Below, piece by piece: positions 2,696 to 28,983 of a stretch of DNA of 29,235 bases. Location: positions 1 to 29,235 of IMG/VR virus record IMGVR_UViG_3300027917_000140; one strand, given 5' to 3'. The notes below the pieces were generated by a model. The model had not been told where the DNA came from, ran no database searches, and saw only the letters and a list, made by a program, of their open reading frames with translations. How positions within the stretch are numbered: the first letter of the stretch is position 1; each line of letters starts with the position of its first letter. Source of the DNA: a virus. Made by a program: the position numbers and the translations under genes.

Positions 2696-2890
2696 TTATT
2701 TTTGAAGCAATTCTCTAAGAAGAGTTTTTATCTCATCAATATCTTTTCTCATATCATCCAATTCCTTTTTACGCAAATCTTTTTGTACTAAAGAATTGAC
2801 ATATTGGTTATAACCGGCAGTATCGCAGTTTACGATAGCACCGGTATTTTCATCTCGATAAAGATTTGAGTGTCCTTCTACTTTTATCAT
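2696..2890 (-). CDS. Small coiled-coil protein of unknown function
   Basis: This 64-aa protein has two parts. Residues 1-30 (MIKVEGHSNLYRDENTGAIV, then NCDTAGYNQY) look like a small folded head. Residues 33-64 form a charged heptad helix (DLRKKELDDMRKDIDEIKTL) ending in LLRELLQK, a likely coiled coil. The start overlaps the stop of the 2509-aa DUF4815 gene by four bases (ATGA), so it is probably translated by coupling with that structural protein. I remember similar short proteins in cyanomyovirus genomes, without an assigned function. A small virion or assembly role is a guess from position. Confidence 0.7.
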   Translation of the reverse strand: MIKVEGHSNLYRDENTGAIVNCDTAGYNQYVNSLVQKDLRKKELDDMRKDIDEIKTLLRELLQK

Positions 2891-8800: not shown

Positions 8801-10416
8801 TTTACAGACTTTATGTTCTGAGTATTGTATGCACGAACTTCGGTTACAGATCTTGATGATTCTACACCATTGATGATTAAAGTTTCACCCTTTGCGAAAG
8901 TTCCTGAGGTCTGTCTTAAGAAGACAATATTGGACGATCCGTCTGCAGTAGCAAATCCTGTTGCACCAGTGCTCTTTCCTTTAACAAAATATGATTGCTT
9001 AATCTGTGATGTAGTTACTGCTTGATTTAATGTGAGTTTTGTGTATGTTTGAATATCATAAAGTCTCAAATCCCAACTTGTGGTTGCATCTGCATATGCA
9101 GAATCTGTTAAATTGAAAGAGTAAACTCTTGCCTCACCAATTTGCTCTCCAACACATCCAAACTGCGCGTACAGTGAGATTGTTTCTCTTACTTTTGCTA
9201 CACCAGTTACATTATTAACTCTTAAAATATTTCCCATTTCAAATGGGACTGTTACGTTTTTAATATCTTCAGTATCTCTTGGTTTTTCTACATCAATGAT
9301 CGATGTTGATGTTTTTTCAATATCATATCCTTTTACATATGCTTTACCTGGAGATATTTTCAGAGATATAAGATTATCGGATGGAATGTTTCCTTGATCC
9401 GTTTGCTCATTAGCAAAGAAGGAACCATCATTTCCTAGTAGATTATTTAAAGATTCTTCTAAATTTAAATCAAAAGGTCTTACAGTATAATCTCCAGATT
9501 CATCAAAAGTTCTTTCTGCAAGATAATCTCGGATTTTATTATATTCGGTTTTTGTTGTTATCTTTTTAACTCTTCCATTTTTTAATCTAAGTAACTCTAC
9601 AAAATCAGTATCATTCGTATCTGTTAATGATTTTTTTGTGAGAGTTAGAGATATTTTTAATCTATCGGCACCTGGTGATGCATAGTTTGAAAATCCTCTT
9701 GCATTATCATATAATGATTCGTCTTCTTTTGCATTAACAATAGATTCGGTTATCTTTAATCCAACTCTATATGATGGGGTATTTGTATACTCATCTAAAA
9801 GAATTGTTTGATCCGAAACACTTACAAAATATCCCCTTATAAAATAAACTCCATCACCAATTGATGCTGCTGATCCAATGGCAGTTGCATTTGCACTGAT
9901 TAAGGATCCAAAAGGAGTTCCTGCATTTATAGTCGTATTTCCATACACAACGTTCTCTGTTGCGGACAATAATTCTCCATCTGCAAATTCAGAGAACTCG
10001 AAGTTCAAATCAGATTCAAGATATTTTACATATAATGTAATATCATTTATATTATTATTTTCCGTTGGCAGAACTACTTTCTGAACTTTTGCAGTAATTC
10101 CAGTAACTTGTCCCTGTATCGTTTTTCCGACAAACTTATCAATATATAATGATATGTCAACTCCAAATTGAGTAGAATTTAGTTTAACCGCATAAAACTG
10201 CCCATCATATGTTATGTTTCCAGGGATAACCATTGATCCCTCTTTAAACATATGACTTCCAAAATCTTCAATCTGATTTTGAAGTATTGATTGTAAAGTT
10301 GTCAGTTCTCTAGACTGAACAGGATATCCTGGTTTAAATAAAACTTTTAGAAAGTTTTTTGCTGAATCAAAATCGTCATAATATGGGCTGATATTTAAGT
10401 TTGTTTTTTGCGACAT
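2887..10416 (-). CDS. Giant DUF4815-type virion structural protein
   Basis: This 2509-aa protein starts with the typical DUF4815 N-terminus of T4-like marine phages: NISPYYDDFD, LFKPGYPVQSRELTTLQSIL and FGSHMFKEGSMVIPG within residues 9-66. The region up to about residue 650 continues with beta-rich sequence. The middle has Ser/Asn/Thr-rich stretches at about 1310-1375 and a Thr-rich linker at about 1610-1650. Next is a DPLAQTFTV-type beta-sandwich module at about 1652-1790, including FLTSVDLYF and a REYAVVLVSEQS segment. Around residues 2090-2175 lies a VKIGNEIIGYNNVGSG module also seen in the gp7-position protein. The C-terminus (about 2290-2509) is another beta domain ending FADLRVIALR. 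The gene occupies the interval where T4 has gp9-gp12, so it probably forms the outer baseplate or its attachment platform. That role is inferred; DUF4815 itself has no known activity. The start lies 6 bases after the gp8 stop. Confidence 0.8.
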   Translation of the reverse strand: MSQKTNLNISPYYDDFDSAKNFLKVLFKPGYPVQSRELTTLQSILQNQIEDFGSHMFKEGSMVIPGNITYDGQFYAVKLNSTQFGVDISLYIDKFVGKTIQGQVTGITAKVQKVVLPTENNNINDITLYVKYLESDLNFEFSEFADGELLSATENVVYGNTTINAGTPFGSLISANATAIGSAASIGDGVYFIRGYFVSVSDQTILLDEYTNTPSYRVGLKITESIVNAKEDESLYDNARGFSNYASPGADRLKISLTLTKKSLTDTNDTDFVELLRLKNGRVKKITTKTEYNKIRDYLAERTFDESGDYTVRPFDLNLEESLNNLLGNDGSFFANEQTDQGNIPSDNLISLKISPGKAYVKGYDIEKTSTSIIDVEKPRDTEDIKNVTVPFEMGNILRVNNVTGVAKVRETISLYAQFGCVGEQIGEARVYSFNLTDSAYADATTSWDLRLYDIQTYTKLTLNQAVTTSQIKQSYFVKGKSTGATGFATADGSSNIVFLRQTSGTFAKGETLIINGVESSRSVTEVRAYNTQNIKSVKQTTPFSGTNDFKADSILDKFDFPGAVSQLVITAAGGGISTVTSPGRTFVGLRTDTVIRYQQSGSSLESYNRISSIASDLLSFEVSAISSVAGVFNGALPTSDIQVNGFLGAPIVRGSGTLFAPLPEQNTSDVDLSNSNLYLIDQLTGQDVDNSDNTITLNTSDISGVTDISWVNFDQERFSVGYNGGGIGTITSDSFDLSGNTITLRNLDSAQSNNDTVVNVTFLKNGIQSKTKNFSRSRVLFVNGSKLKESGTNAATSKNDGLTYNEYYGLRVQDEEISLNYPDVVKVLAVYESLNTSNPTLDVVEFPVITNVGSNALIGENIIGSVSNAVARVVTNNTTTPSSGAANKLGIVYLNENKFSIGEAVTFEESGITSEVDSITNGNFSNITQEFKLNRGQKNQYYDYSRLVRTKNTQDPSRRLMVVFDHYTVPTNDTGDVFTVDSYDKDRFSTDIPNIGGSVRATDTLDFRPRVSVFDPTVTTDRSPFDFNSRTSAFNTSPLRLLAPEEGSVINQSFYLPRIDKIYLDILGNFVVEKGLSSKNPKPPTKNGEFLELGTIAYPAYLYNPSDANIILTDNRRYTMRDIGLIEDRVENLERVTTLSLLEVNTQSLQIQDAEGRNRFKSGFFVDDFSDESKFDTFFSTTLVDGDSRTLNSDISSDSLESLIATEDDLNPENLDLSLDKYSNPPLQLLDENIQKTGNVLTLAYNQVNWLEQPFATKVENVNPFNIVVYDGVIKLQPEVDSWTRTVQLADRNIDRGVVRTQNRSVNLVNNLSQNLRQNLTSTTRLDGITVNRGRGRLVSSSTVDTVVGRSTSSSTSVSNSSSTATGSFSFDTVDTTIRNEVVGTPDELFMRSRNVEFNASNLKPNTRYYHFLDGNSGIDIIPKLIEISNNRQLTGFGASAAFRIGETVVGIVNGVERIRFRICKPNHKSGPFRNPTTTYNQDPYNKEAIGNFYSSTSKILNVDTSSLSQNAQGRFSGYIATGMQLVGQTSGAIAFVKNNRLISDNYGDLIGTFFIRNPNQTPRPSTRIRTGTKTYRLTSSPTNASGLPGSNSVSFAETNYSANATLLQFRATVARETTRTNVSISNTVNLRTSLTTSLTTTTRRNVTTNTYADPLAQTFTVGGNIQVKSDIDTDDDVNGVFLTSVDLYFASIDSGNAPIRVEIRSTQLGTPTLEVIGTPVTLRPRTINENGVETQLIQTSSTGEVATNVRFPEPIFLPPGREYAVVLVSEQSDEYEVWTAVMGNKTVNTQQLPDVDQVIYTKQFALGSLFKSQNGSIWTTDQNQDLKFKLYKAEFTSTQGTAYFYNPPLDESNTYVPELINNPITTLPKKGKIGIVTTTNSDFIGIVTVGRKLAGVNNNGGSAVVVGQGSSVSTVGLTTAGSGYPASVTNEVVSTYNISGEGENLKLRITTNSSGVITGVAHSTVHPDFGTGYKVGDVVGIQTSTTSTQTGRDARITITAINGVDTLYLTNVQGQFNTSGTEFAVGAAVSYYSDATTIVSAAGTNIVSASANGGVYSGDYFKVDHFNHGMYSTTNKVVVNNIKSDVPATVLTSQVTLDEVSTISVASTENFTTFEGRPVGAGYVGYVKIGNEIIGYNNVGSGTLSISPSGRAIDGTISVNHFSNTVVEKYEFGGVSLRRINGITTSIVAPIDIDSYHIKIDRSSTKGNSRINDGATANAPQLSFNDEKLVGGNKVTASENLMYDSVIPSYDILTPGSTTSVTGKIRTVSSTSVDGTEVSFNDNGYEDVQLNSLNALNSVRMVASEVNQDQYLTALPRKKSFTTAITFNSSDPNNALSPILDLESARSVFNLNRINKPITNYPGDNRVNSVLDDPHASVYYSNITNLQNPASGLKVIIAAERPGDADFRVLYTTIKADSSEIEQSYELFPGYNNLKQTTEGLLVVDPSRNSGLPDRKVRASLDGEFLEYEFTVDNLDLFTGYGIKIVMSSSNQAQAPRFADLRVIALR

Positions 10417-12021: not shown

Positions 12022-15000
12022 TTAGTTGAGTGTTTCTGGAAGTGCTCCAGTTTTTCTAAGACCCTCACCCCTTCTTTGAATTGTTGGGAATGTGGATAAA
12101 CCAACATCAACAGTTTTTCCAGTAACTCCAATAGAAATAGGAGATGATGATCTAGTAATCGATGTAAACAATCCCCAAGAGAATTCTCCAACAATATCTC
12201 CACTAGTAGAAAGACCTGTCGTATTAGTTCCGGAATCAATATTGCATGTGACAATTCCTACTGTCCCATCGACAGTTATTGCACCAACATAATAGATATT
12301 GTCTAAGAATGTTGTTCCAATGCCAACTATATCACTATCAGAACTATCGACTGATGTCACACCCGATCCAACCTTAGTGTTCTTAACAAATATTGGATAT
12401 CCAACTTTCAAATCATTGCCAAATGCTGTTGGAGATCTATCGAGGAAGAACTTGATTCCTAATGAATGTCCACCTGTTCCTGTAGTAGTTTCAATAGATG
12501 TTATTATTCCAGAGAAACCAGAAACAATTTGAATACCTCCCAAGTTTTCATAATTTGGACTAGGTAAAGGAACGATAGTTTTTGGTGCAACAGTGTATCC
12601 AAATCCTGGATTTGTAATATTGATTGGAGTGGTTAAAGATCCACCACTCCCAACTGTTACGGTTGCAGTGGCAGTTGTTCCGAATCCAACACCAACACGT
12701 AAAGGATTTTGGAACTTAACATTAACAGTAGATCCAGTGTATCCACTTCCACCATTAACAATACTAAGAGAACTGATAGTTCCACCTGCACCAATAGTTG
12801 CAGTAATATTTGCTGGTGAAGGATCTTCTTTGCCATCAACAACAATACCTTTCAATGAATTGTATGGTCCAGCACCAAGATTATATGTGAAATCACTTAC
12901 ATCATCAACAAAAATTCTAGAATCTGAAGTTGAAACATCTTTAATAATTTTTGCAGTCGGATATACTTGAGAAATTGTAGATTGTCTCGTCTTGTAGACA
13001 AACTCACCATTAATTACTCTATCGGTTTTTTGTTTTGTCCATGACATGGGTTTGTCATTGACTTCATCAACTCCTTGATTAGCATATAAATTTGTTTCAA
13101 ACTTATCTGAGAAAGAGACATCAAAAATAGTTCTTTGATCTTGAGTAACTGTTCCAGAAATAGTATCATTTTTAAATACCTGAACATTATCACCTCTTTC
13201 CAAAGTTGGAATAACATTTTCTACTTGTATATCATCTAAACCTCTTGTCCCTCTATAGAAGAAAATGTCAATATTATCACTTGGTTTTGGTGCAACACTG
13301 AATGCGAATGATGTACCACCATCAAAAGTATATGCATCTCCAGGACTTTGAAGAACTCCATTGATGAATATTAATAATACATTTTGAAGATCTATAGTAG
13401 AATCTTCTGGTTTTTCGAAACTAAGAATTGATCCATTATAGAATAGTGGGAATCTGATTCTTGTTCCATCCTGATAGTTTTTAATAGAATCAATGAAGTC
13501 AAGTTCTCCAAACTGCCATGCTCCAAAATTATCAGTAAATGTCTCCAATACAGTTATTTCAAAATCAGATAGTGGAGATGCTAATCCAGCAGCAGTGACT
13601 AATCCAACTGGTTTGAATACGTCACCTTTTCTGAATGCATATCCAGATCTTGCAATAGAGAAACTATTAACAGCAAAGTATGTTGATCCAACACCTACTG
13701 TTGAACTTGCACCAACATTGACATTAAGCAATAATCCAGTTCCAGTATCAGTTGTTGCACCCACACCTATTCTAGAGACACCGGTTATTTCAAGGTTTTC
13801 ATATGAAGGTTCTGAAACAAATATTTGCGGATTTGTATATCCAGAACCTCCATCAGTAACGGTGAAGAATAAAGTTCCACCAATACCTACTGTGGCACCA
13901 ATGGATGCTACAGAACCTGTATGACCTTCCTCATAAACGCTGACACCGATTGAAACAATTCCATTATATCCAGATCCAACGTTGTCAGTTGCTCCAAGAC
14001 CAATACTATTTTGAATAACTCCACCACTGACAACAGCAGTAACTGAAGCACCAACAAGAGGTGCATATCCAAGACCACCAGTCGATCCAAGAGAAATAAT
14101 AATACCACCTCTAGGAATTTGGTTTTGATTTACATCGGATTCCGAAATCAAAATACTATTTGGATCTGCTATATCTGTTCTAATACCACTGAATACGATA
14201 GAAGATATTCCTGTAGGAGAGGTTTGCTCAATAATTCTGAAATTTCTTGATGGATTATTTTGAGTTGTTGGAGTTTGGAATATTCCATTGATAAACACTA
14301 CTCCATTTCCACCAGTAGTTCCAATACCAGCAGTATTTGCTCCACCAACAGTTAATGTAAATGTTCTACCAATTCCACTAAATTGGTCAGAAACATCATC
14401 ATAAACTTGGTTTGTAGTGTAATCACTCCTAAGGAACACTCTGCCAGTAAAGTCGGAAGTTTCAAACTTTAAGTTGCTACTATCTCTAGTAATACTTGAA
14501 TTACCTCTCGGTGCTTTTGTAAAGAAAATGCTATCTCCAACAATATTGTAAGATCCTTTGTATATTCTAGTCGATGTCGAATCAGTATGTGATGTTGCAG
14601 AAGATCCTACGTGACCTCTCTCAACCTGAACTAATTTTTCAGTTCCTGTATTGGTAATAGGTCCAATATTTGTTGTTCCAAATCCAACATTAACAACTTT
14701 CATATATTCATCATCTATTTTCAATATATCAAGAGGAACTATAGTTGTGATTCCACTTAAAGCAAATGTTGTTGCTGAGGTTGTGATTCCACCACCATTT
14801 CCACTTAATGTTTGAGAGATTTTTGTGAATGTAATTGGGTATTGTGCAACATTATCAAGAGTAATAATAGTTTTTTCATTTCTCTTTGCCATTGCAAATT
14901 GATGAGCATTTCCTTCACCTAAAGATGTAAATGTTACTGCTGTTCCTGATTTTGTTGTTGATATTGAGAACTCGTTATCGTTATTATTAACAATAGCAAA

Positions 15001-18000
15001 TACTTGTGTTGGCAGTTCTGCAATAACAGATCCATTCTTATACATCATTGGAGTTGATCCAACACCGACAAATGTTGATCCTGGAGTATAAACTAATTCT
15101 TCACCATTACTGAAGAAATGATTATTAATCGAAAATACTCCTGTCGATTGATTGAGAATATTTGTATTTGCTGGATCAAATGTTTTGGCAAAAATTGGAG
15201 TATTGTTTGATCTAAGTACAAAGTCTTCTTTATTAATTCTATCTCCGTTGATTGCAAGATATTGAGAAGTATTTACAGTTTCTACAGAATTTCCATACAA
15301 AAGATCTGGTGCTTGATTTACAAAATCGACAGTCGTATAAAGACACTCGCTGAAAGAGTGAATTTGAACATTGCCAGTAAAACTTGCATCTGGATAGAAC
15401 TTAATTAAAACATTATCTCCAGAATATTCTCCACCAAAGGTTCCTATTCCCGTTGTACTTCCAACTGAAAGGATTGAAGATTGTTGAATATAGATGTCAG
15501 TTTTGTCCTGAACCATCATAATTTGGTGAATTGATTTTGTAGATCCAATACTAACTTCAACTAAAGATTTCGATGCATCAAAAATATTTTTATCTAATGT
15601 TAAAAATGTCGTTACACCAGTTCCTCCAGCAAAATCGGATTGATAAATTGCAGATCTTTCATTACCCACTGGTTGATTTGTTAAAATATATCTGTAAGTC
15701 CCAACACCAACGGCAGTTGTTCCAAATCCAACAATTCTAGTTTTTACAACAACATCTTCATTGGAATCATTGTTGAAAGTTAAATTAACTATTCCAGAAT
15801 TGATATTTGCCCCAAATGATCCGATTAATCCACTAGATGTTGAAAAATCTCCAGTATCAAAATAGAAATCTGCAATATTTGTATTTGTTCCATCATGAGT
15901 TAAATATAACTCAACAAAATTCATCTCATTGCTTACTTCTTTGTAAACCTGTGCATTAACGTGTAATGAAGTAAACTTATCAGTTGCAACTCCAATAATA
16001 GTTGAAGTAATTCCGATAATAACCTCTTGACTACGAGAAGTTAGATCAACAAATCCAACTGATTTTGTTCCTACCCCAACAACTTGATTATCAAACTTTT
16101 TGTAGATATACTTGATATCATATTCAATATTAAATGGATCTTCCGGAGTAAATCTGAGATAGTTGTTTCCAAATTCATCACTTTCTACTGAGAAATCTCC
16201 ATATTGCTCCCCATCCTGTGTGGTAAATCCAGATCCAACATTTACCAAAGACTGTTTTTCTAAGATTGCAATATTTTTATTAGTATCATTCTTCAATAAA
16301 ACCAGATTTGTAAGTTGAACCTGATTTCTGTTACTCACATCAGAAACTTTAAACAAATAATTATTATATGATCCAACATCATTTAGATCTAATATATCTT
16401 TATAAACAAATGGTTCGGATTCAAAAGCACTAAATTGATCTTGAATATTGTCAATTTTTAAAACAATATTAGATCTGGACTCATTATAATTTGTGAGTTT
16501 TTTGTTTGATAATTTTAAGAATTTTGATCTTTCATTGACCAAATCAATATCTTTCACAAAATCAAAGTTATTAATGGTATCCACTCTTTTTTCATCAATA
16601 TAATCTCTTACGATTGTTGTATTGTCTGAGAAACTAGAGATTCCAATCTTATCATCTTCATCGGATATTACTTCTGTATCTGAGAAATTTTTAGTTCCAA
16701 CTGAGTGAACCAAACTATTAACTGGTGTCCTAATGTCTTTCCATTGTTGATTACTCTTAATAGAGTAAGAAAGATTTTGATAATAATCATTATCTGCAAG
16801 AACCTGATAATCTTCACTCAATTTTCCAGTTTCAGTATCCCAACCTTCGTCTTTTCTATTGGAGAACTGAATCTCATACATTCCATTATATTTGACCAAA
16901 GATTCGATAGTTGCAATATTTCCGGATGTTTTTCCCTCAATTATCTCATTAGTAGATAGATCATAAGATCCAAATACTTTAAGAGACCCAGTATCATCAT
17001 ATCCAGTGACTTCTAAATCTCTCTCTATACCATTACTAATAATCTTTTCTCCAACTTCAAACGCAGATGGTTTTAATGAAATTGTAAACGTTGGATAATT
17101 GTCTTTAGATATGATTGTACCAAAAGAATCTTGAATTGTTTTTGCAATTCCAGTATTAGTTCCTAAACCGGCAATACTAACGGTAACTCGATCATCAGTT
17201 AATCCGGGTGTAAATTTATTTTCATATTTTGTGACCGTAAAGAACTTATATCCATAGTCACTAGAATTGAATCCATCTCCAGAAGCACTATACTTTTGAA
17301 TACCTTCAAGGAAGACCTCATCATTCACTGCAAATGCATCTGTAGAGAATCCTGCAGATGGTGTTGTGAGAATGCAAGTAAAGATTCCAGTATTTGATGA
17401 TTGGACCTGTTTTATACTAATGCCATTGGTATTATTGACAGTAAAAAGTTCTGCCGATTGATCTGAAATTCCTTTTGGTGGGACATCAATATTCAAACTT
17501 GTAATTGAGTTGGCTGTCAATATTGGTTTTATCAATCCATTATCCAATACAGTTCTTGTGTTGTTGTTGACAACAACTACTTGAGGTTCTGAAATATATC
17601 CATATCCACCGGATGTTATGGTAACAATACCAATCGTATTTGAATCCTTTAACTTAATATTTGGAGATATGAAAGCTTCTGGTTGTAATGTTTTATCGGA
17701 TGAATACTCAAATCCCTCATTTATAATTTTGGTTTCTATAATGTTTCCAATTTCATCAGAATTGAGGGAAACAAACAGATTCTCTCCATTTGTTGAAGTT
17801 ACATTTGATAAGGAGGGTAGTTTTTTGTATTCAGATCCACCGGATAGAAGTTTTACTTTATTTGCTGGTCCTGATGCTGATAGAGAAGTAGTTGTATATT
17901 CTAACTTATCGCACTCTGCAGATGAATATGATAATTTTTCCGGTTTTTGTTGTAATGAAACTTGGAATGTGGTAGTTCCTACACCAGAGATTGTATAAGT

Positions 18001-21000
18001 CTGATTGTAAATACTATTGACAAATTCAATCTCGGAAAAATTATTTACATCTTTATCGGATGTGCTAATATATCCTGCCCTTTCTAATGAATAGTAAAGT
18101 TTTTCTGGGAATCCCACAGATGAATGATTGATTGTATAAGTCGCACCCGGTTGACCTGTAGTACCAACACCAATCGTGTTAAAAGTGGAGGTAGATCCTG
18201 TGGATACAAATTCATTATTAAAATCTTGATCGTAGTAAACCTTAAATGCATATCCATTTAAAGAGGAATCTGATAAATCAAATACAAGATTATTATTTAC
18301 AATAGATTCTATTTTTGGATTGATTGGAGAAATAGTTTGAGATGATCCGCCAGTTCCGGCAATACTTACCACTACCGGTGGATTTTGTTTGGAATTAATG
18401 AGGGTTTCGCTTAACTTAATAGTGTTTGAATCTACTCTATAAACAAAGTAAGAACCAGTGCTTAAACCAGAAGCAACAGTATTTGCTTCATAATAAATCT
18501 TATCTCCCGTTTTCAAATCATGGGAACTAATAGTAATCTCATTAGTTAATGTATTGACACCTATAGATGTAAATCCTATAGGATTAATTTGAAGATTTCC
18601 TGTAACTGAATTTCTGTTTACTCTAATAGCAGTTGAAGTTCCTATTCCAACAGAAAGATTCGGTTTGACATTTAAGGTGATTGAATCACCAGCAGTTAAT
18701 CCATGCGTTGTTGATATTGAAACAGTCGATAAAATCTTTTCAACTTTTCCTACTTTTTGTTCGAGATTACTTTCGAAGTAATAATCATCCGCATTGTCAC
18801 CATTTGTTATGAAAAATACTTCATTGGATGTAAGGGAGGTTTTTATACCAATCGTACTTGGTGACTTATTAACAGCATATACTGTGGTTGGAAGATTAAA
18901 TGGTGTTCCTGTTGGAGAAGTAGAAATTGAAATATGACTATTACCGTTTCTACTATATGTTAATTTTTGATTGGTTTTGAATGGATGATCCTCTAAACTA
19001 ATTCTTTGAGTGGGAATGGATCCCGTTATTGTTTCTTGTCCAAATGAATAGGAAACCTCATGTCCAGTTCCGGCAGTTGTGCCCAATCCAACAGATTCTC
19101 TAGGGTTAAAATAAATCTTATCATTAACTTTTGACTTAAAATAATCTAGTTGCTGATCAATAGTAAAGGTTTTTGTTTTAGCCGTTATTGCCACACCGAC
19201 ATTATGTGTAGTTCCGGGAAGACCTCTCTTTACTCTGAGAACATTTTTATTTGAATATACATTAAGAACTTCAAGAGTCTCTGTCCCAATCCCAATCGTA
19301 CTGCCAACAGAAATACCAGATGGAACTTGCGTCACATAGATTTCTGTTGTTGCAGCACCGGTTCCTGCAATCTCTGTAGTTATTCCTATAGTTGGAATAC
19401 TTGAAACATCAATTTGAAAATAACCATTTAATGAAGATAGTGTAGATGTGGAGAATCCGGATATTGAAACGTAATCATTATCTCCAAATACGTGGAAAGG
19501 TTCTATAGTTACGTTTACCTTCCCGTCCTTTCTCCAAGTAAATAAGGCATTGTTATATGATTGATATATTGTATCAACTCTATTAATAGTTTTTCCTTTT
19601 AACTCTGAAATTTCTGCAGAAATTCCACCACCATTTGTGTTACTATTGTCAAAGTTTAAAGAATCATTTACTTTAAAATTGTCTCCAGGATTTACAATGT
19701 CTATAGATTTAATAGATCCTTCTTGAACAGACTCGATGGATATTTTTTGTCTTCTAATTTCATTACTTTCTATGATAAAATCATTATCGGCATTTGGTTC
19801 TGAAATCTTATATGGAAGAGTGTTTCTAGAAAGTGACGAGTTATTAAAATCAAATGTTTGATTTAATGTGGGATTTTCACTTAAAGTATTTGATCTAAAA
19901 GTGTCTCCAATAAAATATGGGAATTGTGGTTTTCCTGATACTGGATTTATCGATGCGTAGTATGCATATACACCATTCGGAAAATCTTCGGTTTTTGCAA
20001 ATCTTCCATTATTTCTATCAAGATCTCCACTTCCATTTTCATATCTATAGTCTTCGACGAAAAATCCTAGAGGGAAGTTGGATGTTGATGGTCTGTCATA
20101 AACATTAGTTGTGTTTTTAACATAACTAGAAGTCATCGTTTTGATACCAGAGTTTATATTTTCTGGATCTGGGGATGAATATGACCCATAGATTGGATTT
20201 CCATCATATGCCCATCCGATGATTCCGGAAATGTCTGATCCATCATCTTGGAAAGATGACCTCAATGTATCAAAATATCCGGATACAGAATATGATAACT
20301 CATCATCAACGTCTCTTAAAATTTCAGTTTGTTGTGTCGAAAGTTTTTCAACTTGATTAACGGACAAAGATCTAATAGAACAATCAAATATTTGATCCTT
20401 TCCACTTGGAATGACTTCAATAGTGCTAGAAGTTGAATATCCAATACCTGCATTAATTATTCTTAGTTCAGAAACTTTGCCGTCAGAAATTATTGCTCTT
20501 AATTTAGCACCCGTTCCAGATCCAGTTGGATCACTAACAATAACATCAGGAATTGAAAAATAATCAAATCCACCGAATTGAAGATTAACTTCATTTACTG
20601 ATCCATTAACTATGATTGGAGAGAACTGTGCATCTCTGCCATTTTTAATTGTTAATGATGGTTTCTTTTGAAGATTTAAAATATTGGATCCATATCTTGT
20701 TCCTGGTTCATAAAGATATACTTGTTTGATTGATCCTTTGATAACAGGTGTCAAAGTTACAGACTGTATTTGAGTAGTTGTCCCAAGTCCAACTACTGTA
20801 ACTTCAGCCGATGCCCGAATATCGGGATACTTAAATTGCTGAAAACCTGTCCCTGTTGAAGACAACTTTACAAAGTTTTTCTGCTCATAATTTGTGATGT
20901 TAGTACCACCAACACCCGCATCACAAACTCTGAACGAATTATTGTTTTCTTTTAAGATATAGTATTGATTGGTTGTAGTTAAACCAGAAATATTTTGTGG

Positions 21001-23973
21001 CTGTGTGGATCCTAGTCCAACAACTGATGCATACTCTACGATTTCACCACTAGAAAAACCATGATTAGTAAAGTTAATCAAACTTTGTGATGTGGAAATT
21101 CCTGATGGTTTTACCAAAAGTTTTCTATTTGTGAATGTTCCACCATCAATAACCTTTATTTCCGAAATAGTTTTCTTTGCAGTTCCGGTTAAAAATTTGT
21201 GAGTTCCACTTAGAGAAGTAGTTCCAAAAGAAATAACATTTGCATTGGATTGATAATCATCAAAAGTATTGAACAGTTGAACAGTAGTATTATTATCAAT
21301 CTTCACAAAATAATTTTTATTATCAACTAATGCAGATACTCCTAGACCGATACTGATATTTTCATTTCCGTTATTTCTATAAGTAACTTCTTCACCATTT
21401 GTTAAGTTATGATCACTTAAAAATGTAAGTTGTGATGTAGTAGTGCTTATTCCCCCACCTTCAGTAGTTGCTCTACCGTCGAATAATATCTCTCTTCTCT
21501 TTACAACTGTTACTGGTTCAAAAGAACCACCAGATCCATTTCCACCAGTAACATTGACTGACAATACTTCTTTGATATCAAAATCTTGCTTATCAACAAA
21601 AATTTCTTGTACAGAACCACTTATCACTGGTTGAACCAATGCGGTTGTTCCCAACCCTGCAGAAACCACTATTTTTGGTGGATTGATTACATCAAAACCA
21701 GATCCTCCATTCAAAATATTTACATTTTCAATAGGACCAGAATAAATCTTATCAAAAGTTTTATAGTTGGAAATTTCAACCCCATTAATCAGCATTCCAG
21801 TTGTTCCTGGAATTGTTTTTTCTCCGGTTCCGTTTTTAATATTTGGATTTAGAGTAAACTTCTTTAAAACTTTTTGTGGATTTATTGTTCTCGATTTTTG
21901 AGAATATAAAACAAAACTATGTGTTTCGAGTGGTATTGTTGAAGACTCAAACTGAACAGCATTGGAATCAGAGTCTAAAAATGAGTTTGAAGTAAAAAGT
22001 TTTATCTTTTTGGGGTTTGATAAAACTTTAACATAGTAAGAACCCTCAGATAATCCGCTGAGAGGGGTTCCAGATGCCGTGTATTGGATTTTTTCTCCAC
22101 TTATGAAGGGAACATTGGTATCAAATAAAATGGAGGTATACAAACCCGTTGCGGGATCTAAATCGGATAAACTTCCAGAAGTTGCAGAAATTGATGCAGA
22201 ATTTAAAGTCTTTGTTATTTTGTAAGTATATGTGTTTCCAAATCCATTCCCCCAAGAAGGCAAAGAATTTGATGCGACATACGCATAATCATCATTATCT
22301 AAGTATAGATTTTGAACATCCGAAATAATGCTATCATTTCCATATTTAAATGAAATGGAAGAACTATTTGCTTTATTAATTTTTCTTCTTATCTTATAGT
22401 TTTTACTTGCAACTGGAGTAAATCCAGTTAAGTTTCCTATAGATAATGATTTTGACTGAAAGGGTATATTTGCATCAATATAAGGTTTAGATGAAGATTC
22501 TGTTGGAAACACAACAGTGTTTGTCGTTTCATCTATAAACTCTACAAGATCTCCTTTTTTAAATTGAGATTTATCTACCGATGTTTTTAATAAAACCGAT
22601 GCTCCATCAAAAGAATCAATACTGACAGAAGAGCTAGTGTTATAAATCCAAGAGTTTGCAAAAATTTCTTTATATGTTTTATTTTGCTCCGGATTTTTAA
22701 CTAATGTGCCAACATTTTTAACAGTTATTATATCACCTTCACTAACAGAAATCGTTTTTGACTTTTGTACAAAATCAGATAAAACACCTGTAAGTCTTAA
22801 GACAACCTTTTTTGAAATATCTCCATCTTCATATGAAAAATAAGTATCATCCGAATGAATATTATCGGTAGCAATAATATCACTAGTAACTCCAGAACAT
22901 CCCAAAAACTGATTAATACTCTTATCAGAATATTCGATAATATTTGATCCAGAATATAATATTCCAGTTTGTCCAAATCCAATTGTAGAATCTACTGATA
23001 TTACTGATGATCCTACACTCACACTCTCTAAAACTTTTGAACTGGGTGTAACTACAAAATTTCCTTGAACACTACTATTGTCATCATATCCAACAAATAA
23101 TCCAATCTTAAAATATTGTTTTTGATTTCTTGTAAATGCTTCAACAGATGATATTGATGCATTAGTGGCATCATCTGTTGTTTTTGTTAATGTTTGCCCA
23201 ACTATTTTTAATGGATTTCCAGAAATTACTTCAGCAACACATATTTCTCTTCTGATAAATTGTGCATCAGATGGTTTAATCAGATAATTTTCAAGATTAA
23301 TAATCTTTGGAGTCTCTCCATATAATACGTTGAATAAGATTCTAAATGAATCATCCGTTCCCTTTGTCTCATAAAAAGATCTTGCTTCTTTGATAAAGTT
23401 TCCGGCATTGATTCTTGAATCAAAAACTCTATCTTCGAATCCTGGAGTATATGTAAATTTCAGTTTTTTGTAGAATTCTTTTAGAAATAGTGAACTCAGA
23501 TTCTGTATCTTTGCATTACTACTGTGAGATTCTGCGGTTGATGTGGAGAAGACTAACTCTTCTTCATTCAAATCCGTATGATAACTAGTAATACCTGAGA
23601 AACCCCGAACACAACCAGTAAAAGTGTTTGTTGTAATACCAGTATATGTTATAATCTCACTATCTATTTTTAAAAGACCATATTGATTGGGAAATCCTCT
23701 TGTGTTTGAAACAGTAATAGTAGTGTCACTTGCACTAATATTGGAGGAAAGTGTAGTAAATCCAACAACCACATCTGGGGTGAGGTTATCTACCTTTAAA
23801 TATTCATCTAAATTTTCTACAATATCAACAGGTCCGCCTTGATATTCTTGAGAAATGTAATATTGCTTTAAAAAATCTACTGCCTTTGGACTTTCATCCA
23901 AGACAAATTCTGGTAACTGATTGGAAATTATGTCCTGAATCTTTACTCTAGATTCAATCCCAGTCTGTATCAT
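12022..23973 (-). CDS. 7: Giant baseplate wedge/structural protein with gp7-like N-terminus
   Basis: This uninterrupted 3983-aa frame lies between gp6 and gp8, where T4 has gp7 (1032 aa). Residues 1-65 and 160-235 (SLFLKEFYKKLKFTY, then RSFYETKGTDDSFRILFNVL and YGETPKI) resemble the C-terminal part of T4 gp7, which has RSYDFYSTKGIEASYKFLF and VLYNEE. A DSEIITYTG-type beta module at about 75-150 interrupts that match. The remaining ~3700 residues are largely repeats: GGSGY-type modules (about residues 755, 1170, 2120, 3375, 3735 and 3790), H-x-[LF]-x-x-G-E-x-V-x-Y modules (at least seven), and Gly-Ile-Gly-Thr-Thr runs. A YHYH-like domain lies at about 1241-1358 (IIGWAYDGNPIYG, then GDLDRNNGRF and YAYYAS). 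The start is 1 base after the gp6 stop, preceded by purine-rich GAGAG. The gp7 symbol rests on position and the N-terminal resemblance; a projecting fibre-like extension is inferred. Confidence 0.75.
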   Translation of the reverse strand: MIQTGIESRVKIQDIISNQLPEFVLDESPKAVDFLKQYYISQEYQGGPVDIVENLDEYLKVDNLTPDVVVGFTTLSSNISASDTTITVSNTRGFPNQYGLLKIDSEIITYTGITTNTFTGCVRGFSGITSYHTDLNEEELVFSTSTAESHSSNAKIQNLSSLFLKEFYKKLKFTYTPGFEDRVFDSRINAGNFIKEARSFYETKGTDDSFRILFNVLYGETPKIINLENYLIKPSDAQFIRREICVAEVISGNPLKIVGQTLTKTTDDATNASISSVEAFTRNQKQYFKIGLFVGYDDNSSVQGNFVVTPSSKVLESVSVGSSVISVDSTIGFGQTGILYSGSNIIEYSDKSINQFLGCSGVTSDIIATDNIHSDDTYFSYEDGDISKKVVLRLTGVLSDFVQKSKTISVSEGDIITVKNVGTLVKNPEQNKTYKEIFANSWIYNTSSSVSIDSFDGASVLLKTSVDKSQFKKGDLVEFIDETTNTVVFPTESSSKPYIDANIPFQSKSLSIGNLTGFTPVASKNYKIRRKINKANSSSISFKYGNDSIISDVQNLYLDNDDYAYVASNSLPSWGNGFGNTYTYKITKTLNSASISATSGSLSDLDPATGLYTSILFDTNVPFISGEKIQYTASGTPLSGLSEGSYYVKVLSNPKKIKLFTSNSFLDSDSNAVQFESSTIPLETHSFVLYSQKSRTINPQKVLKKFTLNPNIKNGTGEKTIPGTTGMLINGVEISNYKTFDKIYSGPIENVNILNGGSGFDVINPPKIVVSAGLGTTALVQPVISGSVQEIFVDKQDFDIKEVLSVNVTGGNGSGGSFEPVTVVKRREILFDGRATTEGGGISTTTSQLTFLSDHNLTNGEEVTYRNNGNENISIGLGVSALVDNKNYFVKIDNNTTVQLFNTFDDYQSNANVISFGTTSLSGTHKFLTGTAKKTISEIKVIDGGTFTNRKLLVKPSGISTSQSLINFTNHGFSSGEIVEYASVVGLGSTQPQNISGLTTTNQYYILKENNNSFRVCDAGVGGTNITNYEQKNFVKLSSTGTGFQQFKYPDIRASAEVTVVGLGTTTQIQSVTLTPVIKGSIKQVYLYEPGTRYGSNILNLQKKPSLTIKNGRDAQFSPIIVNGSVNEVNLQFGGFDYFSIPDVIVSDPTGSGTGAKLRAIISDGKVSELRIINAGIGYSTSSTIEVIPSGKDQIFDCSIRSLSVNQVEKLSTQQTEILRDVDDELSYSVSGYFDTLRSSFQDDGSDISGIIGWAYDGNPIYGSYSSPDPENINSGIKTMTSSYVKNTTNVYDRPSTSNFPLGFFVEDYRYENGSGDLDRNNGRFAKTEDFPNGVYAYYASINPVSGKPQFPYFIGDTFRSNTLSENPTLNQTFDFNNSSLSRNTLPYKISEPNADNDFIIESNEIRRQKISIESVQEGSIKSIDIVNPGDNFKVNDSLNFDNSNTNGGGISAEISELKGKTINRVDTIYQSYNNALFTWRKDGKVNVTIEPFHVFGDNDYVSISGFSTSTLSSLNGYFQIDVSSIPTIGITTEIAGTGAATTEIYVTQVPSGISVGSTIGIGTETLEVLNVYSNKNVLRVKRGLPGTTHNVGVAITAKTKTFTIDQQLDYFKSKVNDKIYFNPRESVGLGTTAGTGHEVSYSFGQETITGSIPTQRISLEDHPFKTNQKLTYSRNGNSHISISTSPTGTPFNLPTTVYAVNKSPSTIGIKTSLTSNEVFFITNGDNADDYYFESNLEQKVGKVEKILSTVSISTTHGLTAGDSITLNVKPNLSVGIGTSTAIRVNRNSVTGNLQINPIGFTSIGVNTLTNEITISSHDLKTGDKIYYEANTVASGLSTGSYFVYRVDSNTIKLSETLINSKQNPPVVVSIAGTGGSSQTISPINPKIESIVNNNLVFDLSDSSLNGYAFKVYYDQDFNNEFVSTGSTSTFNTIGVGTTGQPGATYTINHSSVGFPEKLYYSLERAGYISTSDKDVNNFSEIEFVNSIYNQTYTISGVGTTTFQVSLQQKPEKLSYSSAECDKLEYTTTSLSASGPANKVKLLSGGSEYKKLPSLSNVTSTNGENLFVSLNSDEIGNIIETKIINEGFEYSSDKTLQPEAFISPNIKLKDSNTIGIVTITSGGYGYISEPQVVVVNNNTRTVLDNGLIKPILTANSITSLNIDVPPKGISDQSAELFTVNNTNGISIKQVQSSNTGIFTCILTTPSAGFSTDAFAVNDEVFLEGIQKYSASGDGFNSSDYGYKFFTVTKYENKFTPGLTDDRVTVSIAGLGTNTGIAKTIQDSFGTIISKDNYPTFTISLKPSAFEVGEKIISNGIERDLEVTGYDDTGSLKVFGSYDLSTNEIIEGKTSGNIATIESLVKYNGMYEIQFSNRKDEGWDTETGKLSEDYQVLADNDYYQNLSYSIKSNQQWKDIRTPVNSLVHSVGTKNFSDTEVISDEDDKIGISSFSDNTTIVRDYIDEKRVDTINNFDFVKDIDLVNERSKFLKLSNKKLTNYNESRSNIVLKIDNIQDQFSAFESEPFVYKDILDLNDVGSYNNYLFKVSDVSNRNQVQLTNLVLLKNDTNKNIAILEKQSLVNVGSGFTTQDGEQYGDFSVESDEFGNNYLRFTPEDPFNIEYDIKYIYKKFDNQVVGVGTKSVGFVDLTSRSQEVIIGITSTIIGVATDKFTSLHVNAQVYKEVSNEMNFVELYLTHDGTNTNIADFYFDTGDFSTSSGLIGSFGANINSGIVNLTFNNDSNEDVVVKTRIVGFGTTAVGVGTYRYILTNQPVGNERSAIYQSDFAGGTGVTTFLTLDKNIFDASKSLVEVSIGSTKSIHQIMMVQDKTDIYIQQSSILSVGSTTGIGTFGGEYSGDNVLIKFYPDASFTGNVQIHSFSECLYTTVDFVNQAPDLLYGNSVETVNTSQYLAINGDRINKEDFVLRSNNTPIFAKTFDPANTNILNQSTGVFSINNHFFSNGEELVYTPGSTFVGVGSTPMMYKNGSVIAELPTQVFAIVNNNDNEFSISTTKSGTAVTFTSLGEGNAHQFAMAKRNEKTIITLDNVAQYPITFTKISQTLSGNGGGITTSATTFALSGITTIVPLDILKIDDEYMKVVNVGFGTTNIGPITNTGTEKLVQVERGHVGSSATSHTDSTSTRIYKGSYNIVGDSIFFTKAPRGNSSITRDSSNLKFETSDFTGRVFLRSDYTTNQVYDDVSDQFSGIGRTFTLTVGGANTAGIGTTGGNGVVFINGIFQTPTTQNNPSRNFRIIEQTSPTGISSIVFSGIRTDIADPNSILISESDVNQNQIPRGGIIISLGSTGGLGYAPLVGASVTAVVSGGVIQNSIGLGATDNVGSGYNGIVSIGVSVYEEGHTGSVASIGATVGIGGTLFFTVTDGGSGYTNPQIFVSEPSYENLEITGVSRIGVGATTDTGTGLLLNVNVGASSTVGVGSTYFAVNSFSIARSGYAFRKGDVFKPVGLVTAAGLASPLSDFEITVLETFTDNFGAWQFGELDFIDSIKNYQDGTRIRFPLFYNGSILSFEKPEDSTIDLQNVLLIFINGVLQSPGDAYTFDGGTSFAFSVAPKPSDNIDIFFYRGTRGLDDIQVENVIPTLERGDNVQVFKNDTISGTVTQDQRTIFDVSFSDKFETNLYANQGVDEVNDKPMSWTKQKTDRVINGEFVYKTRQSTISQVYPTAKIIKDVSTSDSRIFVDDVSDFTYNLGAGPYNSLKGIVVDGKEDPSPANITATIGAGGTISSLSIVNGGSGYTGSTVNVKFQNPLRVGVGFGTTATATVTVGSGGSLTTPINITNPGFGYTVAPKTIVPLPSPNYENLGGIQIVSGFSGIITSIETTTGTGGHSLGIKFFLDRSPTAFGNDLKVGYPIFVKNTKVGSGVTSVDSSDSDIVGIGTTFLDNIYYVGAITVDGTVGIVTCNIDSGTNTTGLSTSGDIVGEFSWGLFTSITRSSSPISIGVTGKTVDVGLSTFPTIQRRGEGLRKTGALPETLN
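14890..22140 (-). repeat. Dispersed ~75-aa beta-repeat family inside the giant gene
   Basis: At least seven copies of a module begin with H-x-[LF]-x(2)-G-[ED]-x-[IVL]-x-Y or a close variant and usually continue with a YYV or YFV strand and a G-x-G-x-H-x-F ending. Approximate copies by nucleotide are 22130-21905 (ISGEKIQY), 21430-21190 (HNLTNGEEVTY), 21080-20825 (HGFSSGEIVEY), 19005-18770 (HPFKTNQKLTY), 18720-18570 (HGLTAGDSITL), 18545-18300 (HDLKTGDKIYY) and 15140-14890 (HFFSNGEELVY). They are diverged at DNA level, so I see them only as protein repeats. The boundaries are approximate. Confidence 0.65.
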
Positions 23974-25904: not shown

Positions 25905-26306
25905 TTATCTTGTTGCCTCTAATAGGAACGAATATTCTTGTGTCGGAAACTCTTGTCCAATAATATCGAAAATCACTGTGACCTCAAATTCATTTTGATC
26001 TGGTCTCGGAAATACTTCAACCTGCAAATTATCAACTCTTGGTTCGAAATTTTCAATCGATATTTGAATTTGGTCACTGATTACTGATGCAGTACCAAAA
26101 TCAACAAACTCAAATAGACTTCCTCTTACATCAGACCCAAATAATGGGTTAAAAAACTTTTCGGTAGGTATTGTTTGAACAATATTTCTCACAGATCTAC
26201 GAATTGCCGCCTCATTTTTGAGAACTCGCAGATCATTTGTAATAGGATGGGGTTCAAATGATAAACTAATATCTTTGAATGCTCTAGATATCCTCCGATT
26301 TGCCAT
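25905..26306 (-). CDS. 25: Baseplate wedge protein gp25
   Basis: This 133-aa protein has the length of T4 gp25 (132 aa) and belongs to the GPW/gp25 family. Recognisable family features are FEPHPITNDLRVL at residues 17-29, AIRRSVRNIVQTIPTEKFF at 34-52, NPLFGSDVRGSLFE, then ENFEPRVDNLQVEV, which parallels T4 NYEPRIDKLAVNV. gp25 sits in the core bundle of the wedge with gp6 and gp7 and contacts the inner tube and sheath. It is the first gene of the wedge operon, 23 bases downstream of a TATAAATA late promoter. Confidence 0.92.
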   Translation of the reverse strand: MANRRISRAFKDISLSFEPHPITNDLRVLKNEAAIRRSVRNIVQTIPTEKFFNPLFGSDVRGSLFEFVDFGTASVISDQIQISIENFEPRVDNLQVEVFPRPDQNEFEVTVIFDIIGQEFPTQEYSFLLEATR

Positions 26307-26328: not shown

Positions 26329-26336
26329 TATTTATA
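26329..26336 (-). promoter_or_regulatory. T4-type late promoter (TATAAATA) for the wedge operon
   Basis: The minus strand reads TATAAATA in the 33-base gap between the 78-aa gene (stop at 26340) and gp25 (ATG at 26306). The predicted start site lies near 26322, giving a leader of about 16 bases. It should drive gp25, gp6 and the giant gp7-position gene. Confidence 0.75.
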
Positions 26337-26633: not shown

Positions 26634-27311
26634 TTATTTATTTTCACTCTCCTCGGATGTTTCTTCACGTTCTTTTGCCGTTTTCCAGAAATATTCGTCC
26701 TCACGACCCATTCCAAGTCGATCATTTCCATTTTCAACTTGATAATATTGAGTTGAAACCTTAAAGTCTGGCATTTTTGGATCTACTGGTGTCAGACTAT
26801 TATCAAAAATACGCAATCTGTTGTTTGGATAGAGAGCATACTGACCATTTTCAAGTTCAATCAGGTTATGTGACTTGTGTTCGGCAGGATTTTCACTGGT
26901 TGCCCAGTCAACATAGTCTGGATCATGATGATAGTTATCAATTGTACAAACATAAGTGCCCTTTACAACACCGTGGTCTCTTGTATAACATTCAAAATCC
27001 ATACTTCCAATGAATTTTTTATCAATACTGATAACACCATAATCCATACAGTTCCAAAACTGTAGGTTTGGTAGATTCATATCGGGATCAGGTAGTTTGG
27101 GACGAGATAAAAACGCACTAATTGGCAACTTATCGTACATTGCCGCATACTCGGGCAAATATGTCTCAAAATAAAAAGCACGTCCAGGAATCGACTTTGC
27201 CGATACCCAGACGCCTTTAACAAATTCACCGTGCCCACTCTGATGGTCTGTAAGATATTCTTTACGAACCCATACTTCTTGTGATGGTAGATTGGTGATT
27301 AAACAACTCAT
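26634..27311 (-). CDS. Conserved-looking hypothetical protein, 225 aa
   Basis: I do not recognise a named domain. The protein appears globular and soluble, rich in Trp, Tyr and Pro: WVRKEYLTDHQSGHGEF at residues 14-30, FYFETYLPEYAAMYDKLP near 47-64, FWNCMDYGVISIDKKFIG near 85-102, a His/Asp-rich HHDPDYVDW segment, and GQYALYPNNRLRIFD near 154-168. The last ~20 residues are charged and acidic (EREETSEESENK), probably disordered. I believe related proteins exist in other cyanomyoviruses, but no function comes to mind. The ATG abuts the stop of the 50-aa basic protein (TAA then ATG), and that gene's end supplies an AAGGA ribosome site. Confidence 0.7.
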   Translation of the reverse strand: MSCLITNLPSQEVWVRKEYLTDHQSGHGEFVKGVWVSAKSIPGRAFYFETYLPEYAAMYDKLPISAFLSRPKLPDPDMNLPNLQFWNCMDYGVISIDKKFIGSMDFECYTRDHGVVKGTYVCTIDNYHHDPDYVDWATSENPAEHKSHNLIELENGQYALYPNNRLRIFDNSLTPVDPKMPDFKVSTQYYQVENGNDRLGMGREDEYFWKTAKEREETSEESENK

Positions 27312-28447: not shown

Positions 28448-28636
28448 CTAGTCAATATCACTAATAATGATACAGTCGTTCTCAACCTCAATGTTTACTT
28501 CTACTCCCTCGTACCACCCCTTCTCATCACAAATCCACTGAGGTATTGTGACATAATACTCACCGGTTACTGGATCGATCTCTACCGTCGTAAAATTTTC
28601 CTGCGGATTTTTTTGCATTTCTTTGAACTCTACCAT
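28448..28636 (-). CDS. AbrB/MazE-like small protein
   Basis: This 62-aa protein has the swapped-hairpin pattern of the AbrB/SpoVT/MazE fold in its second half: YYVTIPQWICDEKGWYEG (residues 27-44) and VEVNIEVENDCIIISD (45-60). The VTIP segment, the Gly after a short helix and the terminal I-I-I strand fit the family. Members act as DNA-binding regulators or antitoxins. In a phage it could regulate transcription or be one half of a toxin-antitoxin-like pair with the upstream HicA-like gene. A T4-late-like TCTAAATA lies 37 bases before the ATG; no clear Shine-Dalgarno sequence is visible. The fold is a pattern call only. Confidence 0.6.
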   Translation of the reverse strand: MVEFKEMQKNPQENFTTVEIDPVTGEYYVTIPQWICDEKGWYEGVEVNIEVENDCIIISDID

Positions 28637-28672
28637 TGATTTTATATATGAAAAAATTTTTTATGAGAGTGA

Positions 28673-28680
28673 TATTTAGA
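28673..28680 (-). promoter_or_regulatory. Possible variant late promoter (TCTAAATA)
   Basis: The minus strand reads TCTAAATA, one mismatch from TATAAATA. I recall that cyanomyovirus late promoters include CTAAATA-type variants. It lies in an intergenic gap 37 bases before the AbrB-like gene. The predicted leader would contain a perfect A6T6 palindrome (28651-28662). Confidence 0.4.
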
Positions 28681-28710
28681 AGTCGATTTGGGTCGTTTAT
28701 AGCTTAGGGA

Positions 28711-28780
28711 AGTTAGGGGTTTTTATATACGGGGGGCATCACGGCGGGCAACACATAAGGGGGCATAATACCCCCTAACT
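28711..28780 (-). repeat. GC-rich nested inverted repeats in the 164-base gap 28637-28800
   Basis: On the plus strand AGTTAGGGG (28711-28719) and CCCCTAACT (28772-28780) are perfect 9-bp inverted repeats. Inside them AGGGGG (28758-28763) and CCCCCT (28771-28776) form a 6-bp stem with a 7-base loop. A further GGGGGG run sits at 28731-28736. In minus-strand RNA the same G-run can pair with any of three downstream C-runs. The local stem lies 25 bases after the HicA-like gene and is followed by UUAUGUGUU, so it may be a weak terminator. The rest of the gap holds the variant late promoter and no gene that I can support. Confidence 0.5.
28758..28776 (-). terminator. Possible weak terminator after the HicA-like gene
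   Basis: The RNA stem AGGGGG/CCCCCU with loop UAUUAUG is stable, but the tail (UUAUGUGUU) is only moderately U-rich. It ends the two-gene unit upstream, which makes a terminator sensible. Confidence is limited by the poor U-run and the alternative pairings. Confidence 0.35.
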
Positions 28781-28800
28781 GCTGTATCACGAACGAATGC

Positions 28801-28983
28801 CTAAAGTGATAACTTCCTGCGGATATCTCTCTCTACTTGATTCAATGCATGACGACAGGAAGGTGTAGATGCCGTGTGAATCTTGACTCCAGTGCGATGC
28901 CTCCAGACTAAATGTTTGTTTGATCGATATAACTCAAACTCATAAGATTGCATGAGTTTGGTGAGTGCCTTCTGGTGTTTCAT
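28801..28983 (-). CDS. Small HicA-like (dsRBD-like) protein
   Basis: This 60-aa protein has a pattern like HicA/YcfA proteins: an N-terminal helix (HQKALTKLMQSY), a strand segment YRSNKHLVWRHRTG with a central His, a strand KIHTASTPS, and a C-terminal basic helix RHALNQVERDIRRKL. HicA toxins are small ribonucleases with a dsRBD-like fold and a conserved His; whether H24 has that role cannot be told here. Phages often carry small non-toxic relatives. It overlaps the upstream gene by four bases (ATGA), suggesting coupled translation. Confidence 0.55.
   Translation of the reverse strand: MKHQKALTKLMQSYEFELYRSNKHLVWRHRTGVKIHTASTPSCRHALNQVERDIRRKLSL

Follow-up and report, generated by a model that had tools for sequence, protein, structure and literature searches.

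The region examined (positions 28637–28800 of the window, i.e. of the whole 29,235-nt stretch of viral DNA that was analyzed) is a gap between a 60-aa ORF (28801–28983) and a 62-aa AbrB/MazE-like ORF (28448–28636), all on the minus strand. The features of the locus, listed in the direction of reading, are as follows.

28801–28983, minus strand: 60-aa gene, phrog_2053, the HicA-like gene of the first, sequence-only reading; upstream, outside the element
28787–28797, minus strand: 5′ box TTCGTTCGTGA, then CAGT at 28781–28778
28772–28780, minus strand: 5′ arm of the long-range stem, AGTTAGGGG
28758–28776, minus strand: local GC hairpin AGGGGG-loop-CCCCCT, with tail TATGTGTTGC lacking an uninterrupted T-run
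28731–28736, minus strand: third C-run, ending the GC-rich spacer (18–74 nt in homologues)
28721–28729, minus strand: TATATAAAA box upstream of the core, UP-element-like or a −10
28711–28719, minus strand: 3′ arm of the long-range stem, CCCCTAACT, overlapping the core start
28690–28713, minus strand: 24-nt core ACTTCCCTAAGCTATAAACGACCC, a proposed binding box for an activator, with a single convincing site in each record
28673–28680, minus strand: TCTAAATA, late-promoter-like −10, one mismatch to NATAAATA
28651–28662, minus strand: AAAAAATTTTTT tract in an unstable A/T stretch
28640–28648, minus strand: second TATATAAAA, just ahead of the start codon, as often in homologues
28448–28636, minus strand: AbrB/MazE-like 62-aa gene, phrog_661, directly downstream
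25905–26306, minus strand: gp25 baseplate wedge gene (Pfam GPW_gp25, 2.9e-12; phrog_261), a downstream syntenic landmark

The upper half of the gap, described earlier as G/C-rich relative to its surroundings, is indeed so: the G+C content of 28711–28800 is 51.1%, compared to 34.8% for the window and 27% for 28637–28710, and 0.13% of the 90-mers of the window are as G+C-rich. The sequence-only reading also placed the gap between HicA-like and AbrB-like genes. The downstream product shows a resemblance to AbrB/MazE that is weak by score, and the HicA identity remained unconfirmed, because the 60-aa gene gave no match in a Pfam scan. Among 23 AbrB-like members, the MazE_antitoxin profile matched 15 weakly (best 2.7e-4) and TIGR01439 matched 10 (best 0.0011). 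The protein of the window scored 13.8 with TIGR01439 (cut-off 28.3), matched no Pfam family and stayed below the cut-off of the curated AbrB/MazE profiles. Its structural model (pLDDT 79.6, pTM 0.52) comprises strands and one helix; the top Foldseek matches were MazE, AbrB and SpoVT, with probabilities of 0.96–1.00, yet with E values of 0.2 or worse, and a weak resemblance to the MazE/AbrB fold is suggested by the model. A search of genome contigs with one AbrB-like protein yielded a single partial match (residues 7–33).

The stem-forming words reported for the gap were all located, in minus sense. The 9-bp long-range stem AGTTAGGGG/CCCCTAACT was found exactly (28780–28772/28719–28711), the same G-run can pair locally (AGGGGG, 28776–28771, with CCCCCT, 28763–28758), and the third C-run is a further partner, used in the minimum-energy fold (G-run paired with 28736–28732). 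The G-run has, in consequence, three possible, competing partners. The centroid fold contains the local hairpin; the long stem is absent from both the centroid and the minimum-energy folds. A perfect inverted repeat of at least 9 bp also arises in 16/500 dinucleotide-shuffled versions of the gap, which makes the long inverted repeat mildly unusual. Minus-strand folding, proposed earlier as a check, gave an ordinary energy (z = −1.35; 21 of 200 shuffles fold as well), with z = +0.41 for the plus strand. No Rfam family was matched at the gathering score, and in evalue mode the only match was MIR4208 (22.8 bits, against 140). The sequence AGGGGGTATTATGCCCCCT, with tail TATGTGTTGC, passes a loose terminator scan (5 T in 8), in which one site was found and 0.8 were expected by chance.

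Homologous loci were fetched through relatives of the AbrB-like protein, without use of the gap, the best 80 being kept in each of two sets. Of these 160 loci, 16 with short upstream regions and 42 with duplicate ones were dropped, which left 53 (set A) and 49 (set B) distinct loci. The core was identified at most 320 nt upstream of the AbrB-like gene in 48 of the 53 set-A loci (at most one mismatch) and 44 of the 49 set-B loci (at most two mismatches), compared to 1/550 and 4/550 mononucleotide-shuffled upstream regions at the same respective limits. Two classes of core were recognized: CTATAAACGACCC (class 1, that of the window) and CTAyAAAGTGTTAC (class 2). Among the ten exceptions, eight contain an HNH endonuclease-like ORF between the core and the gene (HNH_3 of Pfam in 4/4 inserted ORFs tested, the remaining ones being judged by eye), and two have a 15–17-nt core deletion. 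The latter (L371 and L397) lack 15–17 nt of the core tail (CTACAAAAGTAAATAT), from which this part was read as dispensable or replaced. The eight insert loci (L021, L052, L062, L071, L075, L364, L376 and L436; e.g. L052:808-1662) make up 8/102 of the protein-anchored distinct loci; where the core is visible (six of them, L062 at no fewer than two mismatches), its tail is of class 2, unlike the set-A loci without an insert, which are mostly class 1. Seven of the eight named records found through the protein contain the core and S-CAM7 does not; the eight include a single-cell virus and the nearly identical pair P-SSM2 and P-SSM5.

Pattern scans identified at least 257 distinct copies of the core. 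Among the matches listed, an AbrB-like ORF comes next in 124/126 class-1 and 114/131 class-2 copies. The copies not followed by such an ORF include three at contig ends, three with an endonuclease-like gene, and thirteen that precede other small genes in loci where no AbrB-like ORF was detected by HMM. Since these copies were gathered with core patterns, invariance inside the patterns is by construction.

The core was also sought in phages chosen from a gp25 search blind to it: one coliphage and 13 cyanophages, the latter picked for diversity from 60 matches listed of 733. The sequence CCCTAANCTAYARA is located 1.7–5.1 kb upstream of gp25, on the same strand, in 11 of the 13 cyanophages (six exact matches and five that differ at one position; S-BM3 is included by counting across the ends of its record). 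In this gp25-anchored test, no core was found in S-H34 or coliphage KFS-EC, and ACG-2014f, with merely a weak look-alike, was counted as negative. A reversed-pattern control gave 0–4 matches per genome at one mismatch; therefore, the position and surroundings of a match matter. When the records were searched whole, additional core matches appeared only at one to two mismatches, about as often as with the reversed control, and the window contains a single match.

BLAST searches with three core regions lacking the AbrB-like gene placed the core at similar map positions in many named cyanophages, often unannotated (60 matches each of 340, 117 and 291 records, with E up to 10 and chance hits including Vibrio and other phages). 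The core in Syn9, S-SM2, P-TIM68, Syn1, DSL-LC02 and S-ShM2 follows a run of tiny ORFs, presumably early genes, and precedes a few more genes. Downstream of it, on the core strand and within the fetched stretch, lie gp25 and gp6 in S-SM2, P-TIM68, Syn1 and DSL-LC02; gp25 of Syn9 is at 58348. An opposite-strand ORF lies directly downstream of the core in DSL-LC02, while in DSL-LC03 two small same-strand ORFs are followed by two opposite-strand ORFs. In P-TIM68 and Syn1 the core match overlaps an annotated ORF. The core is thus independent of the AbrB-like gene, and the idea of a leader specific to that gene was dropped, as the core is also present in loci and named phages in which no such gene was found.

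The anatomy of the element was examined in (i) 275 copies, nearly all AbrB-linked and most gathered with core patterns, and (ii) 25 sequences, i.e. 24 named records (one of them a single-cell virus) and the window, all found through the core or its neighbours; ACG-2014f was left out of the latter after its site proved unlike in appearance. The 5′ box is marked by TTCGT in 251 of the 275 copies (TTCGT...CAG in 243) and was not seen in Syn9-like phages. It is separated from the core by a hypervariable, GC-rich spacer of 18–74 nt. The TATATAAAA box, found in the window only at 28729–28721 and 28648–28640, has four A columns conserved in 19–23 of the 25 sequences. The core itself has the consensus ACTwCCCTAAsCTAyAAA, followed by about 17–20 nt, a −10-like box and an A/T tract; its columns from CCC to AAA are identical in 21–25 of the 25 sequences, except for two positions (C/G and C/T), and its tail is variable.

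A −10-like box was defined as ATAAATA (at least 6 of 7) at +22 to +24, or TATAAT (at least 5 of 6) at +25 to +29. Such a positioned box was present in 18 of the 25 sequences, compared to 1.85 in shuffles, the positions having been set after looking at these related phages, the window included; anywhere in 20 nt, the values were 19/25 and 5.53. ATAAATA at 6 or 7 of 7 positions is found in 9/25 sequences and is exact in S-PM2 and Syn1. Several homologues have TATAAT-like boxes in its place, and some close relatives lack a good late box, with CTATTTC replacing TAAATA.

The conservation of the stems was analyzed at two depths. The close set comprised 26 loci of 42 distinct blocks: 15 non-ACT blocks were left out, as was L034 (ACT-type), whose block began at an earlier CAGT, and the window replaced the identical L002. 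In these loci, 90.9% of the cells of the long stem pair, compared to 86.9 in shuffles, and its covariation score (0.113, against 0.056 in shuffles) was reached by 0/500 shuffles and exceeded all slid versions. Pairs changed on both sides number 2/9, close to the shuffle mean of 1.9 (459 of 500 shuffles reach this), and five of the nine pairs never vary. No covariation was detected in the local hairpin of the close loci, which is uninformative because it is nearly invariant there. RNAalifold predicted 12 pairs, none of them compensatory, and did not predict the long stem.

In the broader survey, 237 of the 275 copies were used for hairpins, and the 119 ACT-type copies among them for the long stem. 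The full 9-bp stem is present in 23 of these 119 (5.1 expected by re-dealing the 3′ arms), and 78 keep just the three invariant pairs. A GC hairpin beside the 5′ box occurs in 146/237 copies, compared to 20% in shuffles (5′ arm G-richer in 91, not in 55). A GC hairpin is likewise present in 13/25 sequences, compared to 3.9; it is missing from the other 12 and from many AbrB-linked copies in which the core is kept. The S-CAM1-like copies L226 and L245 carry a GC hairpin followed by six T, in the block before the core; in Syn1 and Syn9 the sequence after the GC hairpin reads CTTAATG or TTAAATA. The covariation check suggested by the sequence-only reading was consequently split, since the long-stem score lies above shuffles but the doubly changed pairs do not, and the local hairpin shows none. 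Of the earlier proposal that competing stems form an attenuator or regulatory RNA, the regulatory-looking intergenic region, the three partners of the G-run and the long-stem score survive; the double changes, the non-universal hairpins and the silence of Rfam speak against the rest. Competing-stem attenuation does not appear to be conserved in this element. The hairpins noticed are mostly its changeable upstream part, and the conserved sequence is a different stretch, downstream. The case cautions that hairpins noticed in a single genome may turn out to be the portion of a conserved element that is conserved least; those described here may represent terminator-like insulation drifting by lineage, rather than a switch.

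Taken together, the core is conserved and syntenic, occurs as one convincing site per record and is followed at a preferred spacing by a −10-like box. We consider it probable that 28637–28800 is a composite transcription control region of T4-like cyanophages, acting on the minus strand between the tiny-gene array and the gp25–gp6 baseplate genes. The GC-rich hairpin block would insulate the upstream array in a terminator-like manner while free to change. The core (28713–28690) may be the box for an activator protein, about 20 nt upstream of a putative −10, TCTAAATA (28680–28673), and the upstream TATATAAAA may act either as a second start or as a promoter element rich in A+T; the TATATAAAA at 28648–28640 may be another such element. 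The region would drive the AbrB-like gene here and, in other phages, whichever small genes precede gp25, and CCCTAAgCTATAAA would, if the region is a promoter, matter for expression during infection, the timing of which is inferred. Autocorrelation of the core peaks at 10 nt in class 1 (0.325; next 0.311, at 8 nt) and class 2 (0.314; next 0.282), a weak hint that would suit a tandem-binding activator. Several findings count against a promoter: S-H34 and S-CAM7 have no core, L371 and L397 lack part of it, and opposite-strand ORFs lie soon downstream in DSL-LC02 and DSL-LC03. Single use in a genome is, moreover, unusual for a promoter box.

The proposed control region shares traits with known systems. 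T4 middle promoters combine a MotA box in the −30 region with a sigma70 −10. Like them, the element has a conserved box that precedes a −10-like sequence by a preferred distance; by eye, however, the core does not resemble the MotA box. It further differs in having one core site per record, and motA, like asiA, has no homologue in cyanomyoviruses according to PMC2984593. How these phages run middle transcription is described as unsettled in PMC2984593 and PMC5780444. The T4-type late promoter has TATAAATA; for cyanophages, PMC2984593 gives NATAAATA. The box resembling ATAAATA that follows the core at a preferred distance, and TCTAAATA in the window, are similar to it, but the three TATAAATA words of the window have no core nearby. 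With Rho-independent terminators the element shares the GC hairpin ahead of the core and, in L226 and L245, the six T that follow; in contrast, the hairpin of the window ends in TATGTGTTGC, at a loose-scan site of a kind expected 0.8 times by chance.

Four other explanations were weighed against the promoter. A cis-acting RNA leader or attenuator, in which the G-run chooses among its local partner, the third C-run and CCCCTAACT and thereby switches the AbrB-like gene, draws on stems that exist (the third C-run being used in the minimum-energy fold), on the 90.9% pairing and the covariation score of the long stem in the 26 close loci, and on hairpin frequencies above those of shuffles (146/237 and 13/25). 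It is nevertheless improbable, given the ordinary folding energy (z −1.35), double changes at the shuffle level, a local stem without covariation, 0/12 compensatory RNAalifold pairs, a stem complete in just 23/119 copies, hairpins absent from many AbrB-linked copies and 12/25 sequences that keep the core, the interrupted T-run and the lack of an Rfam match. We give similarly little weight to an operator through which the AbrB-like protein would regulate its own gene. The position of the core just upstream of this gene in most protein-anchored loci would suit it, as would the best Foldseek matches of the model (MazE, AbrB and SpoVT). However, 13 copies lie in loci without an AbrB-like ORF by HMM, and Syn9 and S-PM2 keep the core, with the protein unmatched there among the tblastn matches listed. 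In a comparison of 165 of the 238 AbrB-linked copies, those with a parsable ORF, the tail class differs in 16/179 protein pairs of at least 90% identity and 143/816 of 80–90% identity, with no discordance for identical segments (0/31). Still less probable, and indeed very hard to credit, is a gene for a small trans-acting non-coding RNA with the core as its functional sequence: the element is intergenic, conserved and often unannotated in the named records listed, but no compensatory structure was found around the core, Rfam gave no match and the core tail is variable.

A promoter-type replication origin, whose transcript opens the A+T-rich tract and primes the leading strand, as in T4 oriF/oriG, is unlikely, though the least so of the four. 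The core with its flanks would then serve T4-like cyanophages as their main early origin, a single one in each genome, placed where the small-gene array ends and fired by a transcript forming an R-loop over the A/T tract, a role we regard as doubtful. The baseplate-gene neighbourhood is like that of T4 oriE. According to PMC3016281, T4 oriF and oriG each combine a promoter with an unwinding element rich in A+T, and oriE carries evenly spaced 12-nt repeats. The promoter-like box with its A+T-rich tract resembles this, and repeats recall oriE, whose 12-nt spacing, however, differs from the weak 10-nt periodicity of the core. Synteny, the single convincing site per record and conservation beyond any single gene also fit an origin. 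The downstream tract ranks 15th of 29,196 40-mers of the window in instability, but only 131st of 29,176 60-mers and 1074th of 29,156 80-mers, and 1–17% of the genome is equally unstable in five isolates. The 10-nt autocorrelation peak of the core, common to the two classes, is a weak signal (class 1 gives 0.325 there and 0.311 at 8 nt). The maximum of the detrended cumulative GC skew lies 4–11 kb from the element in 4/5 genomes, but elsewhere in Syn1; the local skew change is unremarkable in 5/5, and the skew may follow gene class. Alongside this reading we note, as a separate observation, that in 8 loci an HNH endonuclease-like gene separates the core from the gene that follows.

Other candidates were rejected. 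A host RpaB/HLR1 box was considered, since 148/150 class-2 copies score 12–14 of 16 (12 is reached by 15/150 shuffles) with the HLR1 consensus, but these copies have a core in common, and the class-1 copies score no higher than shuffles. Pairing of the 5′ box with the tail of the core, noticed by eye in P-SSM2 (TTCGTGA/TTACGAA), was dropped because, by eye, the 5′ box is constant when the tail changes. The Pho box and NtcA consensus, as given in PMC3037559, do not match the element by eye. No paper on the element was found among those listed in the literature searched, which mostly excludes subscription papers. The core box of the probable control region is a concrete target: it sits where the small-gene array ends, is present in most of the genomes tested and often lacks an annotation.

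Further observations concern individual loci and the rest of the window. In L081:3001-3140 (Synechococcus phage DSL-LC03) the core precedes a gene starting MKNFRAFMESGG, whose start region looks, by eye, similar to those of the AbrB-like genes, giving the impression that the leader was fused to a different gene. A TTCGTTCGTG...GGGGGCAGT module upstream of the core is tandemly duplicated in L110, L120, L123, L143 and L146. The only TATAAATA words of the window, at 26336, 12017 and 2678 (minus strand), lie upstream of gp25, a 522-aa ORF and a 111-aa ORF, respectively, and are candidates for ordinary late promoters. A sigma70-like site (TTGACT-17-TATGAT, with TG before the second hexamer; 28443–28415, minus strand) precedes a 252-aa ORF (phrog_1574, with a weak glycosyltransferase match); a scan of the stretch for such sites found 5, with 5.0 expected. 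The minus-strand ORF at 26634–27311 matches phrog_3704, labelled ferredoxin (4.1e-113), whereas the S-SKS1 gene at a similar place (L082:5232-5948) is annotated PurM, so that either the labels disagree or the genes differ. Two giant minus-strand ORFs, of 3983 aa (12022–23973) and 2509 aa (2887–10416), adjoin the baseplate genes.
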